DNA from: Alphaproteobacteria bacterium
Lineage (GTDB): Bacteria > Pseudomonadota > Alphaproteobacteria > SMXP01
Direction: 5' to 3'
NCBI GenBank assembly: GCA_028285305.1
Contig: JANQPV010000064.1
Coordinates: forward strand, 1 to 64,000
DNA: 64,000 bases
The notes beneath the pieces were generated by a model. The model did no database searches and was not told the DNA's origin. It worked only from the letters and a program-made list of their open reading frames with translations. The first letter of the stretch is position 1; every line of letters starts with the position of its first letter. Shown in pieces: positions 1,093-29,460 of the stretch. Both the position numbers and the translations under genes were made by a program.

Positions 1093-3036
1093 TCCGACCT
1101 CTCTGTCGCAGCAGGGCGGAACGTGACCAGCGACCCGAGTGGAGGCACTGTCGTCGCCACGGTTACCGGTATCGACCCCGATGCGGGCGATACGCTAACC
1201 TACTCATTGACGAATGACGCAGGCGGAAAATTCACCATCGACGCGAATACTGGCGAGATCTCCCTAGCGGCGGCGTCCGCGCCGGAATTTGCCCAAACGA
1301 AGAGCGATCCTTTTGCCGGGATTGATGTGGGCGCCGAAGCGACACCGGCTTTCGTTGATATCGACAATGATGGCGATCTCGACATGTTTGTTGGCAACTC
1401 CAGCGGCACCGTTGACTATTATCAGAACACCGGCTCCCCCACCGCCCCGACCTATACGCTGGCAAAGAGCCCGCTAGGGTCGATCGATGTGGGAGCGGAT
1501 TCAAGCCCCGAATTCGTTGATATCGATGGCGACGGCGATCTCGACGCTTTCGTCGGTGAAGGCGACGGGACGATGAACTTCTATGAAAACACCGGCACGG
1601 CGGGCAGCCCAACATTTGCCGCTGGCGTAAACGGTGCGTTCGGCTTATCGGACGTGGGGAGTGACTCGACCGCAACGTTTGTCGACATCGACAATGACGG
1701 TGATATGGATCTGTTCGTTGGCGAAAGCGACGGTGGCTTCAACTACTATGAGAATACAGGAACCGCGACAAACGCCTCTTTTGCCAGCAATAGTTTCAAC
1801 CCGTTTGGGCTAACGGACCTGGGCAATGATGTCGATTTGACTTTTGCCGATATGGATGGCGACGGCGATCTCGATGCGTTTTCTGGGGAAGACAGCGGTA
1901 ATATCTATTACATGGAGAATACCGGAACCGCGACCAATCCGACATTTGCTGCCGCCACGACCAATCCTTTCGGGTTGTCGGACGTCGGCGACGAGTCCTC
2001 TGTCACCCTCGCCGACATCGATGGAGACGGCGATATGGATATGATCGTCGGTATCGGCAATGATGATGGCGCATCCGACGATGATGACGATGCCTCGCCA
2101 GGTGACGGAAAGTTCACCTACTTCGAGAACACCGCTTCGGCCATCGATACGTCTTCTGTCAGCAGTCACACAGTGACGGTGGAAACCAGTGACGGCAGTG
2201 CGACGCACTCGGAAGATATCACTTTCCATTTTGGTACGGACGGCGCCGATTCCATTACGGGTGGGTCGGATACGGATGTCATTTACGGCCTTGATGGAAA
2301 CGACACGCTGAACGGTGGCGCCGGCAATGACACGATCATTGGTGGCGCCGGCGCGGACGCCATCGACGGGGGTATAGGCACCGATACGGTCGACTATTCG
2401 TCATCCACCGCCGGCGTGAACGTCAACCTCGATACTGGAGTGGGAACCGGAGGCGACGCCGCCGGCGACACGTTCACAAGTATCGAGGCGGTCACGGGGT
2501 CGGAGCACGACGACACCGTTTACGGCACCGATACGGGCGGTGTCACCGCAAACCTTGGTGCGGGCAATGACACGTTCGATAACGATATGGGCGATGCCAC
2601 CCAAGTTGACGTGGTCGACGGCGGATCAGGTAACGATACGATTTATACTGGTGCAGGCGACGATACGCTCATCGGCGGAGAGGGAAATGACAATCTGTAC
2701 GGTGAAGGAGGCAATGATACGCTCGACGGCGGCGCCGGCGACGACACGCTCTACGGCGGCGACGGTGATGACCTCTTTGTCTTCGGTGTGGGAGACGGCA
2801 GCGATACCGTCATCGGCGGAACCGGTGGAGGCTGGACCGATGCCATTCAAGTGACCGATGCTTCCGGCGATTCCGCTCCGGCTGATGATTGGACTGTGGC
2901 GATTGATGGCGGTGCCACGCATACCATTACAACAGGTGACGGCTACTTGGATCTTGGTGCGGATACGTCCGGAACGATCACTCTGTCTGACGGCAGCACG
3001 GTCGATTTCGACGGCATCGAACGCATTGAGTGGTAA
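1..3036 (+). CDS. Giant repeat/RTX secreted protein, 3' portion (5' partial)
   Basis: The frame is open from the first base, so the gene begins upstream of the window; about 1011 C-terminal residues are visible. Domains in order: four cadherin/VCBS-like repeats of 95 residues (each with DVDGD and DGTWDFTP-type motifs), one further cadherin-like domain, five FG-GAP/VCBS-type repeats carrying DIDGDGDLD calcium-binding loops, and two blocks of RTX nonapeptides (GGxGNDT-type) near the C-terminus. Large proteins of this build are normally exported by a type I secretion system through an uncleaved C-terminal signal and act outside the cell in adhesion or biofilm; calcium binding is expected from the many Asp/Gly loops. 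No ABC exporter, fusion protein or TolC gene lies in the window. The exact role (adhesin, S-layer or enzyme) cannot be told because the N-terminus is missing. Confidence 0.9.
1285..2133 (+). repeat. Five FG-GAP/VCBS-like repeats within the RTX protein
   Basis: Five units of roughly 60 residues, each with a D-[IM]-D-[GN]-D-G-D-[LM]-D calcium-loop motif followed by a YxENTGT-type segment. This arrangement is typical of beta-propeller FG-GAP/VCBS repeats. The fifth unit carries an Asp-rich insertion ([14 protein letters not shown]) inside the loop region. Confidence 0.85.
2233..2800 (+). repeat. RTX nonapeptide repeats in two blocks
   Basis: Glycine/aspartate-rich nonapeptides of the GGxGxDxUx type occur at about 2233-2400 and again at about 2614-2800, separated by a roughly 70-residue spacer ([16 protein letters not shown] onward). 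These are the calcium-binding beta-roll motifs of type I-secreted RTX proteins. Confidence 0.88.
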
Positions 3037-3056
3037 GGCCAAATTTTGAGGCGTGT

Positions 3057-3071
3057 TTAAAGGCCACTTAA
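3057..3071. promoter_or_regulatory. Perfect CtrA-type box TTAA-N7-TTAA
   Basis: TTAAAGGCCACTTAA lies 21 bp after the stop of the RTX gene. It matches the Caulobacter CtrA consensus exactly, but it is poorly placed for any recognised promoter: about 500 bp from the DUF3604 start and just beyond the terminator of the candidate minus-strand RNA. It may be fortuitous. Confidence 0.35.
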
Positions 3072-3085
3072 GATTGAGCCCTTAC

Positions 3086-3136
3086 AAAAAAGCTCCTACC
3101 GCTAAAGTGAGAGGAGAGACACTGAGCGGCAGGAGC
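3086..3136 (-). terminator. Intrinsic terminator on the minus strand
   Basis: Read on the minus strand, GCTCCTGCCGCT (3136-3125) pairs with AGCGGTAGGAGC (3103-3092), a 12-bp stem with one G-U pair, followed at once by six T (3091-3086). AGTG/CACT pairing inside the loop leaves a pyrimidine-rich apical loop TCTCTCCTCT. On the plus strand there is no T-run after the stem, so it should terminate mainly minus-strand transcription, for which no minus-strand protein gene is visible. Confidence 0.7.
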
Positions 3137-3238
3137 AAGGGTTGGCCGAAGCCAACCGTTGGGTTGGAGTAGTTCGCTTTTCGTGTCGTCGTTGAGTAGC
3201 GAACAATTCCGTCATACGTTCTGGGATTGTTCATCCCA
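3086..3238 (-). ncRNA. Candidate structured small RNA
   Basis: Read on the minus strand, four stem-loops follow one another. First, TGGGAT/ATCCCA (3238-3222, 5-nt loop). Second, GTTCGCT/AGCGAAC (3204-3172, long loop). Third, GGTTGGC-TTCG-GCCAACC (3157-3140), a perfect 7-bp stem closed by a stable C(UUCG)G tetraloop. Last, the 12-bp terminator stem plus T6 at 3136-3086. No protein gene on this strand would need that terminator. The terminal loop has a CUCUCCUCU sequence able to pair with Shine-Dalgarno regions, a feature known from some alphaproteobacterial trans-acting RNAs. I do not recognise a known family (not SRP, 6S, tmRNA or RNase P). The 5' end is a guess; no clear promoter is seen. 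Confidence 0.5.
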
Positions 3239-3567
3239 TGTCAGATTTGTGACGTTATCTAGGTTATCGTACGGCAGGCAGGGTGTCCGAGCAAGCCTCG
3301 CGGCGCCTCCCGTAAACGAAGAAATGCCCAGAAAACCGTAATTTCCCACACTTTTCTCGCTTTCCGTGACACCTATGTCACATTTTCTTAATGGATCCCC
3401 AGCGTGGGAACCGTCCCCCTTCGCATGTTGAAATGACGCCGTCCCACGGGTGCTAGACCGCCCGCTTAGGCGACTTGTTCAAGTTCATGTCCGTCTCTAT
3501 GGTCCTGTAACGCATTAATTTTTCTTGTTCATCGACCCACACCCAGACTCTTCAAAGGACCGAAACG
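3239..3567. other. Intergenic region before the DUF3604 cassette
   Basis: No convincing gene; a 60-codon plus-strand frame at 3159-3341 has no homology-like features. A perfect 6-4-6 palindrome GTGACA-CCTA-TGTCAC at 3366-3381 could be an operator; its spacing does not fit a CRP site (TGTGA-N6-TCACA). Related TGTCA/TGACG half-sites occur near 3240-3255. The promoter of the downstream cassette is expected here. Confidence 0.4.
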
Positions 3568-5427
3568 GTGCGCTTATTCTTCAAGACACTTCTGGCGGCG
3601 ACGGGAATGGCGCTCGCCGGTTCCGCTGTTGCGCAAACTGCCTCTGAACCCGACACTCAAACGCCAACGCGCTCGGCCTACTTTGGCGACCTGCATATCC
3701 ACACCAAATACTCGTTCGATGCGTTTATCTTCAATGTCAGAACTACGCCCGACGATGCCTATCGCTATGCCAAGGGCGAAGCCATTCCGCACCCGTCGGG
3801 CTATAATATCCGGCTGGCCGGCGAGCCGCTCGATTTCATTGCCGTGACGGACCACGCGGAATTCTTAGGGGTCTTGCCCGCTATGGCGGACCCGGATCAT
3901 CCGCTTTCGAAAGTGTCCTACGCTGAGGATATGTTTAGTACGGATCGGGCAAAGGTCATTACCGCGTTCAATCGGATTGTGGCCAGTCTGGGCACGGGCC
4001 AGCGTCCGCCGGAGCTGGACACTCTGGAGCCCGTCAAATCGGCTTGGTCTGAAATCATCAAAGCAGCGGAACGTCATTATGAGCCCGGATCGTTCACAAC
4101 CCTGGTCGCCTATGAATACACATCGGCGCCCGAAGGACGCAATCTGCACCGGAACGTAATCTTCGCGGGTCCGAACTATCCGGAGACGCCTTATGCGTCT
4201 CTGGACTCTCAGAACCCGGAAGACCTGTGGGCATGGATGGATGAGTTGCGCGCCAATGGGATCGAGGCTTTGGCCATTCCTCACAATTCGAACGGCAGTG
4301 ACGGCACCATGTTCGAGCGCACCACCTACGACGGAGGCCCCCAAGATAAAGCGTATGCAGAGCGGCGTATGCGGAACGAACCTTTGGTCGAGATCACGCA
4401 AGTGAAGGGAACCTCAGAGACCCACCCTGCCCTGTCTCCTAACGATGAATGGGCCAATTTCGAAATCATGCAAACCTATGTCGGATTTCCCCGCCGGATT
4501 ACAGAGTTCGAAGGCGGCTATGTGCGCGACGCCCTTTTGACGGGTCTGCAAAAGGAAGAGCAAGAGGGGTTCAACCCCTACAAGTTCGGCCTCGTGGCGG
4601 CCAGCGACACGCACAATGCGGGCGGACCGATCGACGAGCGCCGCTATTTCTCAAAGGCGGGCATTGCCGATGGAACGCCGGAAGCAAGAGGCTCGATCCC
4701 GCCGGGCGGCGCGGGCCATTGGTCGGTCAGCGGACAACAAGATGTGTTCGAGAGCCAGTTCGCGGCCTGGAGCGCATCGGGGCTCGCCGGTGTGTGGGCG
4801 GAAGAAAACACGCGCGAGAGCATCTATGCGGCTTTGCGCCGGAAAGAAACGTTTGCCACTTCCGGGCCCCGTATCCGGGTCCGTTTTTTTGCCGGAGCCA
4901 AATTGGCTGACGCCCTGTTGACCGATCCGGCGGCAACCCAGTTCTTGTATGACACCGGCGTGCCGATGGGCGGCGAATTGCCGCTCGATAACTTGCGCTC
5001 GTCGCCGCGTTTTTTTGCCTGGGCGGTCCGCGATGCGAATGGCGGTTGGCTTCAACGTGTACAGATCATAAAAGGCTGGATCGAAGATGGCGAAAAAAAG
5101 GAAAAGATCTTCGATGTTTCATGTTCCGACGGTCTTTCGCCGGACCCCGAGACCCATCGCTGCCCCGACAACGGCGCCACGGTTGATTTGTCCGACTGCA
5201 GTGTTTCGGAGGATAAGGGCGCGACGGAGCTGAAGGCTTTGTGGGAAGATCCCGAATTCGATCCCGACGTGCGTGCTTTTTATTACGTGCGAGTTTTGGA
5301 GAACCCCTCTTGCCGTTGGTCGACTTGGGATGCGTTGCGCAATGGAACGCCTATTCGTCCGGGATTGCAGCCGGTGATCCAGGAACGGGCTTGGAGTTCG
5401 CCCATTTGGATTGAGCCGGACGCGTAG
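3568..5427 (+). CDS. DUF3604 family exported protein, copy 1
   Basis: 619 residues. The GTG start follows an AAAGGA ribosome site by about 8 bases and gives a clear signal peptide (MRLFFKTLLAATGMALAGSAVAQ), so the protein should be exported. The mature N-terminus carries a PHP-like metal motif (YFGDLHIHTKYSFDA) and VTDHAEFLG; further conserved stretches are IPHNSNGSDGTMFE, ASDTHNAGGP and GVWAEENTRE. Repeated HxH, DH and DxH elements suggest a metal-dependent hydrolase fold, but the family has no established reaction. Cysteines in the C-terminal third (CSDGL, HRCPDNG, DLSDC, NPSCRW) are shared with the paralogue and may form disulfides. First gene of an apparent cassette with a second copy, a membrane isomerase and a HupE-like protein. 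Confidence 0.9.
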   Translation: MRLFFKTLLAATGMALAGSAVAQTASEPDTQTPTRSAYFGDLHIHTKYSFDAFIFNVRTTPDDAYRYAKGEAIPHPSGYNIRLAGEPLDFIAVTDHAEFLGVLPAMADPDHPLSKVSYAEDMFSTDRAKVITAFNRIVASLGTGQRPPELDTLEPVKSAWSEIIKAAERHYEPGSFTTLVAYEYTSAPEGRNLHRNVIFAGPNYPETPYASLDSQNPEDLWAWMDELRANGIEALAIPHNSNGSDGTMFERTTYDGGPQDKAYAERRMRNEPLVEITQVKGTSETHPALSPNDEWANFEIMQTYVGFPRRITEFEGGYVRDALLTGLQKEEQEGFNPYKFGLVAASDTHNAGGPIDERRYFSKAGIADGTPEARGSIPPGGAGHWSVSGQQDVFESQFAAWSASGLAGVWAEENTRESIYAALRRKETFATSGPRIRVRFFAGAKLADALLTDPAATQFLYDTGVPMGGELPLDNLRSSPRFFAWAVRDANGGWLQRVQIIKGWIEDGEKKEKIFDVSCSDGLSPDPETHRCPDNGATVDLSDCSVSEDKGATELKALWEDPEFDPDVRAFYYVRVLENPSCRWSTWDALRNGTPIRPGLQPVIQERAWSSPIWIEPDA

Positions 5428-5684
5428 CGCCCGAGATCAGCAGCCTCGATAGCAGACAACGAAGCCATGTTCTCGCCTTGACCCTTGCCTGTGTTGCGAT
5501 AAAAAAGCACTTGGAGACCTAGAGCGTTTGCAGGCGCGAACTTGAGAGTCGATTGATCGAGGAGCAAGCGGATGGAAGCATTCGGGAGTGAATGCATCTC
5601 ACCGCCGCGCGGAAACGCGCGAGACAGAATATCTGCAACCGTATTTGTTTCTACCAGAACTAAAACGGTTTTTGGGAGGGGAAA
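5428..5684. other. Spacer between DUF3604 copies with two perfect hairpins
   Basis: This 257-bp spacer holds GCATTC/GAATGC (5578-5595) and CGCGCG-GAAA-CGCGCG (5606-5621, a GNRA-type tetraloop), both upstream of the second copy. No T-run follows. They may act in the leader of the second gene or stabilise processed mRNA ends. An SD-like GGGAGGGG lies at 5675-5681. Confidence 0.4.
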
Positions 5685-7553
5685 TTGACGTTGAGGAACA
5701 TACTTGGATTGAAGGCGAGCTTGTTGGGCTTGATCTTCACCATTTCACTCGCCGCTGCTCAGGCCGCGAACGACAAAGGTCAGACTGCAGATTTTAATCC
5801 CGACCGCAATGCCTATTTCGGCGATCTTCATATTCATACCAAGCACTCCTTTGACGCCTTTATCTTCAATGTGCGGACGACGCCCGACGATGCGTATAAG
5901 TATGCGAAAGGCGAAGCCATTATGCATCCGGCCGGCTTTCCCATTCGATTGACGGGGCGGCCCCTTGATTTCATTGCGGTGACCGATCACGCCTCGTATT
6001 TGGGAATTCTGCCGGCGATGGCGGATCCCGACCACCCTCTGTCCAAGGTTCCCTACGCCAAAGATATGTTCAGCTCCGATCGCAATAAAATAGCGGTCGC
6101 GTTCGGTAAGGTCGCCTCGAGTCTCGCGGCCGGGAAGAGACTGCCGGAGCTGAGTAGTCCTGAAACGGTTAAATCCGCCTGGAAGGATATCATTGACGCC
6201 GCCAACCGTCACTACGAACCCGGCAAACTGACGACCTTTATCGGCTATGAATTTACATCCGCCCCGCAAGGACGGAATTTGCACCGAAACGTGATCTTTA
6301 GGGGTGCCGACGCGCCCGATATTCCGTATGCCGCACTCGACTCACAAAATCCGGAAGATCTCTGGAAGTGGCTGGACAGCCAGCGCGCTCAAGGGATCGA
6401 AGGTCTGGCCATTCCGCACAATAGCAATGGTAGCAATGGTACGATGTTTGAGAGAACCACATATGAAGGCGCACCACTCGACGCGGTGTACGCAAATCTT
6501 CGTATGCGGAACGAGCCGATTGTCGAAATTACACAAGTCAAAGGAACATCCGAAACGCACCCCATTCTCTCCCGCAACGATGAGTGGGCGGATTTCGAAC
6601 TTATGGAAACCTACATCGGAACGCCGGTTCCCATTACCAAATTTCGGGGAGGCTACGCTCGCGACGCGCTGCTCACCGGCATTCAAATGGAAGAACGCGA
6701 AGGTTTCAATCCCTACAAATTCGGTATGATCGGCGCCAGCGATAGTCACAACGCCGGAGGCCCGGTCGACGAGGATCGCTATTTCGCAAAGGTGGGCGTC
6801 ATCGACGGAATGCCGGAAGGTCGTGGGTCGGTTCCGCCCGGCGGCGCCAAGACCTGGACGGTGGGCGCTGAGGAAGACGCAAACATCGCACGGTTTGTCA
6901 CGTTTGGCGCATCGGGTCTGGCCGGTGTTTGGGCCGAAGAGAATACGCGAGACGCCATTTATGGCGCACTTCGGCGCAAGGAGACCTTTGCAACATCAGG
7001 CCCCCGGATCCGCGTGCGCTTTTTCGGCGGTTCGTCGCTTCCAGAAGACTTGCTCACCCGGTCGGATTTGATGCAAACCGCCTACGAGCAGGGCGTATCC
7101 ATGGGCGGCGAACTGAAAGCATCGTCGCCTCCCCGCTTCCTTGCGTGGGCGGTGCGAGATTCGAGTTCGGGATGGCTGCAGCGCCTTCAAATCGTCAAAG
7201 GATGGATCTCCGAAGGAGAGCGTAAAGAGAAAGTATTCGATGTGGCCTGTTCCGACGGCCTTGATCCGGATCCAAAAACTCATCGGTGTCCAGACAATGG
7301 AGCGACCGTCGATCTGTCCGACTGTCGTATTTCAGAAGATAAAGGCGCAGTGGAACTAAAAGCCATGTGGCAGGACCCCAAGTTCGATCCATCTCAGCAT
7401 GCGTTCTATTATGTCAGAGTCCTTGAGAACCCCTCTTGCCGCTGGTCAACATGGGATGCCTTGCGCGCCGGAACGCAATTGCGCCCGGGCGTTGATCCCG
7501 TTATCCAGGAACGGGCCTGGAGTTCGCCCATTTGGATCACTCCCGAAGGCTAA
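5685..7553 (+). CDS. DUF3604 family exported protein, copy 2
   Basis: 622 residues, colinear with the preceding gene over the whole length with the same motifs (YFGDLHIHTKHSFDA, VTDHASYLG, IPHNSNGSNGTMFE, GASDSHNAGGP, GVWAEENTRD) and the same C-terminal cysteines, so the pair is a tandem duplication that has since diverged. The start is TTG at 5685 behind a strong GGGAGGGG; a second TTG at 5691 is equally possible and has better spacing. The N-terminus (ILGLKASLLGLIFTISLAAAQA) is a signal peptide. Substrate unknown. The isomerase gene begins 7 bases after the stop, which suggests co-transcription. Confidence 0.9.
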   Translation: MTLRNILGLKASLLGLIFTISLAAAQAANDKGQTADFNPDRNAYFGDLHIHTKHSFDAFIFNVRTTPDDAYKYAKGEAIMHPAGFPIRLTGRPLDFIAVTDHASYLGILPAMADPDHPLSKVPYAKDMFSSDRNKIAVAFGKVASSLAAGKRLPELSSPETVKSAWKDIIDAANRHYEPGKLTTFIGYEFTSAPQGRNLHRNVIFRGADAPDIPYAALDSQNPEDLWKWLDSQRAQGIEGLAIPHNSNGSNGTMFERTTYEGAPLDAVYANLRMRNEPIVEITQVKGTSETHPILSRNDEWADFELMETYIGTPVPITKFRGGYARDALLTGIQMEEREGFNPYKFGMIGASDSHNAGGPVDEDRYFAKVGVIDGMPEGRGSVPPGGAKTWTVGAEEDANIARFVTFGASGLAGVWAEENTRDAIYGALRRKETFATSGPRIRVRFFGGSSLPEDLLTRSDLMQTAYEQGVSMGGELKASSPPRFLAWAVRDSSSGWLQRLQIVKGWISEGERKEKVFDVACSDGLDPDPKTHRCPDNGATVDLSDCRISEDKGAVELKAMWQDPKFDPSQHAFYYVRVLENPSCRWSTWDALRAGTQLRPGVDPVIQERAWSSPIWITPEG

Positions 7554-29184: not shown

Positions 29185-29460
29185 TAGTTTAGGAAAGACG
29201 AAAAATTTCTATACTCAATTATTAGTTGAGCAAATCAACTATCATCTTGTCAACATCTTTCCGGTATCTGCCGCACTTTAAGTAATTGCGCTCTTAGCGG
29301 CAATGCGCTCACACAAACACAATCCGGGTTGCGCTGATCCTCTCCCCCCTTTTAGCGTTCAATCTCAGAATGCGGTTTTCGTTCGATTTTCGCAAAAAAA
29401 TTGGCGCTTGAGGAGTTTGAGCTGGCGAGAGTTGGGTCGTTTGCAAAAGCCCTCTTCGTC
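29185..29460. other. AT-rich spacer
   Basis: 276 bp, visibly AT-richer at 29185-29260, with a short hairpin CTCAA/TTGAG (29213-29229). No gene is supported; short frames here look like chance. Confidence 0.35.

Follow-up and report, generated by a model that had tools for sequence, protein, structure and literature searches.

The window analysed here is a stretch of 64,000 nucleotides. Its first 3036 positions belong to the gene of a giant RTX protein, of which only the C-terminal part, with four near-alike cadherin-like repeats, is present, as the gene starts beyond the end of the contig. Positions 3568–7553 are occupied by a tandem pair of genes for DUF3604 proteins, which are about 70% identical to each other, and five more DUF3604 matches are found elsewhere in the genome. 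The interval from 3036, where the giant RTX/cadherin-repeat gene ends with its stop codon, to 3568, where the first DUF3604 gene starts, contains on its minus strand the candidate RNA described below. A perfect 6-4-6 palindrome, GTGACACCTATGTCAC (3366–3381), lies between the promoter region of this RNA and the first DUF3604 gene. It is the only exact occurrence of GTGACA-N4-TGTCAC in the window, and could be the binding site of a regulator or act as a weak terminator on the plus strand.

From 3238 to 3086 on the minus strand, the sequence forms four hairpins, the last of which is a 12-pair terminator stem followed by U6. The first two hairpins are modest: H1 (3222–3238) has 6 pairs and the loop GAACA, and H2 (3172–3204) has an outer stem of 7 pairs (GUUCGCU/AGCGAAC), 2 weak inner pairs and an accessible loop. 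H2 and H3 are separated by a largely single-stranded, C-rich linker (3158–3171) that includes ACUCC and AACCCAAC, the latter with an unpaired probability of 0.67. H3 (3140–3157) is the stem-loop GGUUGGC(UUCG)GCCAACC with a c(UUCG)g tetraloop. H4 (3092–3136; −25.8 kcal/mol) is the intrinsic terminator, in which the 12-pair stem and an inner 4-pair stem carry the 10-nt loop UCUCUCCUCU at 3119–3110, and its U6 tail (T6 in the DNA) occupies 3086–3091. The 8-mers of the terminator loop have an unpaired probability of 1.0 in the ensemble. An earlier note on this DNA had described the same succession of stem-loops, and all of its elements are present on the minus strand where it had placed them: the C(UUCG)G-closed stem corresponds to H3 (3157–3140), and the loop that it quoted, CUCUCCUCU, is contained in the 10-nt loop of H4. 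Its remark that no protein gene on this strand would need a terminator also holds, as no same-strand ORF of at least 100 aa ends upstream of H4.

Fold, strand and promoter

The structure of the candidate exceeds chance. The minimum free energy of the minus strand is −61.1 kcal/mol (z-score, −6.69), and none of the 200 shuffled sequences folded equally well; the z-score of the plus strand of the same region is −4.22. As a yardstick, 1.2 Mb of the same genome was used, from which 700 intergenic windows of the candidate's length were sampled. None of them reached the z-score of the candidate, which was −6.2 in that run and is about −6 to −7 depending on the run. The top minus-strand window of this sample (z-score, −6.13) was found to sit on the genuine MmgR sRNA of the genome, and represents an unplanned positive control. 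The terminator hairpin ranks fifth by energy among the terminator-like sites on both strands of 1.264 Mb of the genome, and second among the intergenic sites in this sequence that have a T-run of at least five. Nearly candidate-level structure (z-score, −6.1) was also observed in a plus-strand intergenic segment of contig C24 (L186:15057–15209, near contig position 195057), which has no Rfam match.

Strand-specific signs favour the minus strand as the RNA strand. The U-run, the UUCG tetraloop and a G·U pair in the terminator stem are specific to this strand; the G·U pair becomes A·C on the plus strand, and the energy of the terminator stem changes from −25.8 to −21.7 kcal/mol. H2 is an exception, being more stable on the plus strand (−10.8 versus −8.1 kcal/mol).

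Upstream of the hairpins, the minus strand contains CTTGCTC-N17-TACGAT (3295–3266), which is plausibly the candidate's own promoter. It consists of a possible −35 element, TTGCTC (3289–3294), preceded by a C, and a possible −10 element, TACGAT (3266–3271), with a 17-base spacer. The match is weak (7 of 12 positions) and was selected after inspection. In the intergenic DNA, the frequency of TTG-N20-TANNNT is 2.7 × 10−4 per base, which gives about a 0.8% chance per 30-base tolerance for a pattern that was itself picked post hoc. Promoters of similar form are found in the same genome upstream of tRNA-Gly (TTGGAG-17-TAGGCT) and MmgR (TTGCGT-17-TATTGT). Based on the position of the −10 element, the 5′ end of the RNA would be near 3259, and with the 3′ end at the U-run, a transcript of about 174 nt (3086–3259, minus) is predicted from the fold, the shuffles, the terminator and the promoter.

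Alternative readings of the locus

The region displays general traits of trans-acting intergenic sRNAs, namely an intrinsic terminator without a protein gene and structure beyond chance. It is highly likely that the region is an sRNA gene, and likely that a trans-acting sRNA is encoded by the minus-strand segment from 3259 to 3086 as a free-standing gene with its own promoter and intrinsic terminator. Several other explanations were weighed. The site just downstream of the giant gene, the great strength of the terminator and the failure to find conservation would suit a merely insulating terminator, which would keep stray antisense transcripts that originate in the DUF3604 promoter region out of the giant gene and leave a short RNA without function of its own. 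However, the three additional upstream hairpins, one of them with an extra-stable UUCG loop, are superfluous for termination and lift the fold score far above that of other intergenic DNA, and a plausible dedicated promoter is found at a fitting distance. An element that serves for insulation only is therefore considered improbable.

A role as a cis-antisense element appears equally improbable. As no good terminator follows the giant gene before 3366, a sequence fully complementary to the RNA would be part of the gene's 3′ UTR, and the two transcripts could pair and be subsequently cleaved or stabilised. The convergent layout, with 50 bases from the stop codon to the terminator, is compatible with such an arrangement, as is the fact that the sole plus-strand terminator-like site is the weak one at 3366–3381. 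On the other hand, a purely antisense RNA needs no elaborate hairpins, and it also speaks weakly against this reading that neither the genome's other copy of the giant-type gene nor the relatives of this gene elsewhere are accompanied by a comparable convergent RNA or opposite-strand terminator.

Two in-frame ATG ORFs, of 37 codons (3215–3102) and 50 codons (3234–3082), overlap the RNA, and the stop codon of the shorter one falls within the terminator stem, so that a small mRNA or a dual-function RNA was also taken into account. Neither ATG is preceded by a Shine-Dalgarno sequence, no Pfam match or homologue was found, and ORFs this short readily occur by chance, all of which makes translation very unlikely. 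Finally, a known RNA in disguise (MmgR/alpha-R8 or 6S) or a repeat element (REP or transposon end) could be suspected from the CU-rich motif resembling that of alpha-R8 and from the palindromic hairpins resembling REP elements, but is next to impossible given the single copy and the outcome of the searches described below.

Relatives and known families

The host genome contains alpha_tmRNA (279 bits), which among the 14 control genomes was found in Caulobacter only; the host is therefore an alphaproteobacterium. The earlier note had proposed an Infernal search against Rfam. This search matched no family, neither at the gathering thresholds nor, on 2980–3600, at E-values up to 10. The genome's own representatives of two families in question lie elsewhere: a genuine 6S RNA is found on contig C35, and a single MmgR/alpha-R8 RNA, scoring over the family cut-off, is located on the minus strand of contig C24 (204266–204344; L187:4266–4344). 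The latter carries the single-stranded core UUUCCUCCCU of its family, which is absent from 3086–3259. Neither MmgR/alpha-R8 (RF00519; E-values up to 10) nor 6S RNA (RF00013) gave a covariance match to the candidate, and membership in alpha-r14/NfeR1 was rejected because the CCUCCUCCC motif of this family is absent. Contig C24 also harbors, near 29275 (L149:9275, minus), an intergenic, near-perfect A+T-rich palindrome of 46 bases, TTCTTGACAAATGTAAAGATATATGTTCTTTTACATTTGTCAAGAA.

The candidate RNA is single-copy in the genome, which contradicts a REP or other repeat element, and a plasmid, phage or viral origin was rejected after searches of plasmids, phages and viral contigs gave no match to its sequence. 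At the sensitivity of these searches, the MmgR/alpha-R8, 6S and repeat identities are refuted. A DNA search of 60 relatives returned noise only, and no homologue was found in 4 family members. With a covariance model built from the single sequence, the candidate itself was the only match in its order, which is represented by just 5 genomes in the searched set, and no homologue was detected in 385 genomes of the class or in the sequences flanking 35 DUF3604 loci; such a model reaches close relatives only, and absence beyond the order is accordingly weak evidence. In the 60 relatives, the model found only the candidate itself and one weak partial match (genome G033; 71 bases; E-value, 0.05), which was rejected as a homologue, being an incomplete match to a short hairpin that resembles a terminator and is unrelated in sequence. 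Examination of synteny, either via DUF3604 (best relatives 59–61% identical) or via the C-terminus of the giant protein, revealed no corresponding RNA. The failure to find a homologue counts against the sRNA reading, as neither conservation nor covariation backs it. The candidate has no known relatives and is very probably an orphan trans-acting sRNA.

According to the literature, several alphaproteobacterial sRNAs carry comparable CU- or C-rich elements. The CU-rich anti-Shine-Dalgarno motif of alpha-R8/SisA is UUUCCUCCCU (PMC12559287), and that of alpha-r14/NfeR1 is CCUCCUCCC, found in unpaired regions of each of its three hairpins (PMC10746234). The loop of the second hairpin of EcpR1 bears the CU motif UCCUCG (PMC4414408), and in PmaR of Agrobacterium a C-rich open loop is the target-binding site (PMC6234868). 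The candidate resembles the alpha-R8/MmgR/SisA-D family (Rfam RF00519, suhB), which is Hfq-associated, in its alphaproteobacterial host, intrinsic terminator and CU-rich stretch, which in the candidate is a putative anti-Shine-Dalgarno sequence. However, the alpha-R8 core lies in an internal single strand, whereas the CU stretch of the candidate, UCUCUCCUCU, is in the terminator loop, and alpha-R8 RNAs are 77–80 nt long, compared with about 174 nt for the candidate, which has no Rfam match. Alpha-r14/NfeR1 likewise has several hairpins and a CU-rich anti-Shine-Dalgarno sequence in a loop, but it repeats its motif in all three hairpins, whereas the candidate lacks this motif and has one CU-rich loop only. 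Similar to the candidate, EcpR1 is a hairpin sRNA with a CU motif in a loop; it differs in its functional loop, UCCGCCGCAUCU of hairpin 1, in having two hairpins and about 101 nt, and in its conservation across Rhizobiales. PmaR shares the C-rich open loop, but is a single long spoon-like stem-loop that mostly activates its targets and pairs away from the ribosome-binding site.

Pairing with start regions and proposed mode of action

The earlier note had suggested that the terminator loop could pair with ribosome-binding sites. For evaluation of this claim, the start regions of 978 genes predicted in 1.2 Mb, about a quarter of the genome, were used. The loop, which is fully accessible, pairs at or below −12 kcal/mol with 365 of the 978 start regions compared with 154 control regions, and GAGGAGA, to which the loop is complementary, belongs to the four most frequent 7-mers ahead of start codons. 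A smaller excess of start regions was obtained for the C-rich linker (130 versus 90). However, loop shuffles of matched composition pair with the start regions equally well, 37 of the 100 reaching values as low. Any CU-rich loop would thus pass, and the anti-Shine-Dalgarno reading is not specific; the complementarity between the loop and Shine-Dalgarno sequences is a possible mode of action that bears no evidence of selection. No shared function was obvious among the top-ranking targets, which include cupin (L149:14090), wax ester synthase, TetR, glycosyltransferase and luciferase-like genes.

The neighbouring giant secreted protein and the DUF3604 cassette had been named as possible targets, a link that finds little support. 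In the cassette, the prediction for the first gene is poor (rank 876 of 978), and only the second, a moderate target (rank 34 of 978) with GGGAGGGG ahead of its start, is weakly compatible with this suggestion. A sponge for MmgR, acting via a G/A-rich loop of the plus strand, was rejected, as the predicted pairing (−12.3 kcal/mol) was equalled by 891 of the 3786 control windows. The proposal of a minus-strand sRNA as such is strongly supported by its fold and terminator, the asymmetry between the strands, the lack of a protein gene, the plausible promoter and the presence of an Hfq gene in the genome, whereas the regulation that it implies is plausible in general form only.

Under the preferred reading as a trans-acting sRNA, transcription would start from the gene's own sigma-70-type promoter and be stopped at 3086 by the strong intrinsic terminator, and the U-tail of the released RNA may bind Hfq. 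The open, CU-rich terminator loop would then pair with the purine-rich Shine-Dalgarno regions of several mRNAs, perhaps with assistance of the C-rich linker, and ribosome entry on the paired mRNAs would be blocked and their decay promoted. Provided that the region is an sRNA gene, the chances that it acts in this anti-Shine-Dalgarno mode are judged to be about even. A more far-reaching proposal, advanced tentatively and considered rather unlikely, is that the RNA could be a global regulator specific to its lineage. Its terminator hairpin would double as the targeting domain by directing the loop against the common GAGGAGA-type Shine-Dalgarno sequences, and the RNA would act as a broad repressor beside MmgR and unrelated to it.

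The order to which the host belongs is a sparsely sampled one among the alphaproteobacteria. If the proposed regulator is real, anti-Shine-Dalgarno sRNAs would seem to arise anew in separate alphaproteobacterial lineages, with the seed placed here in the terminator loop; otherwise, the candidate would be an ordinary, well-formed orphan sRNA.
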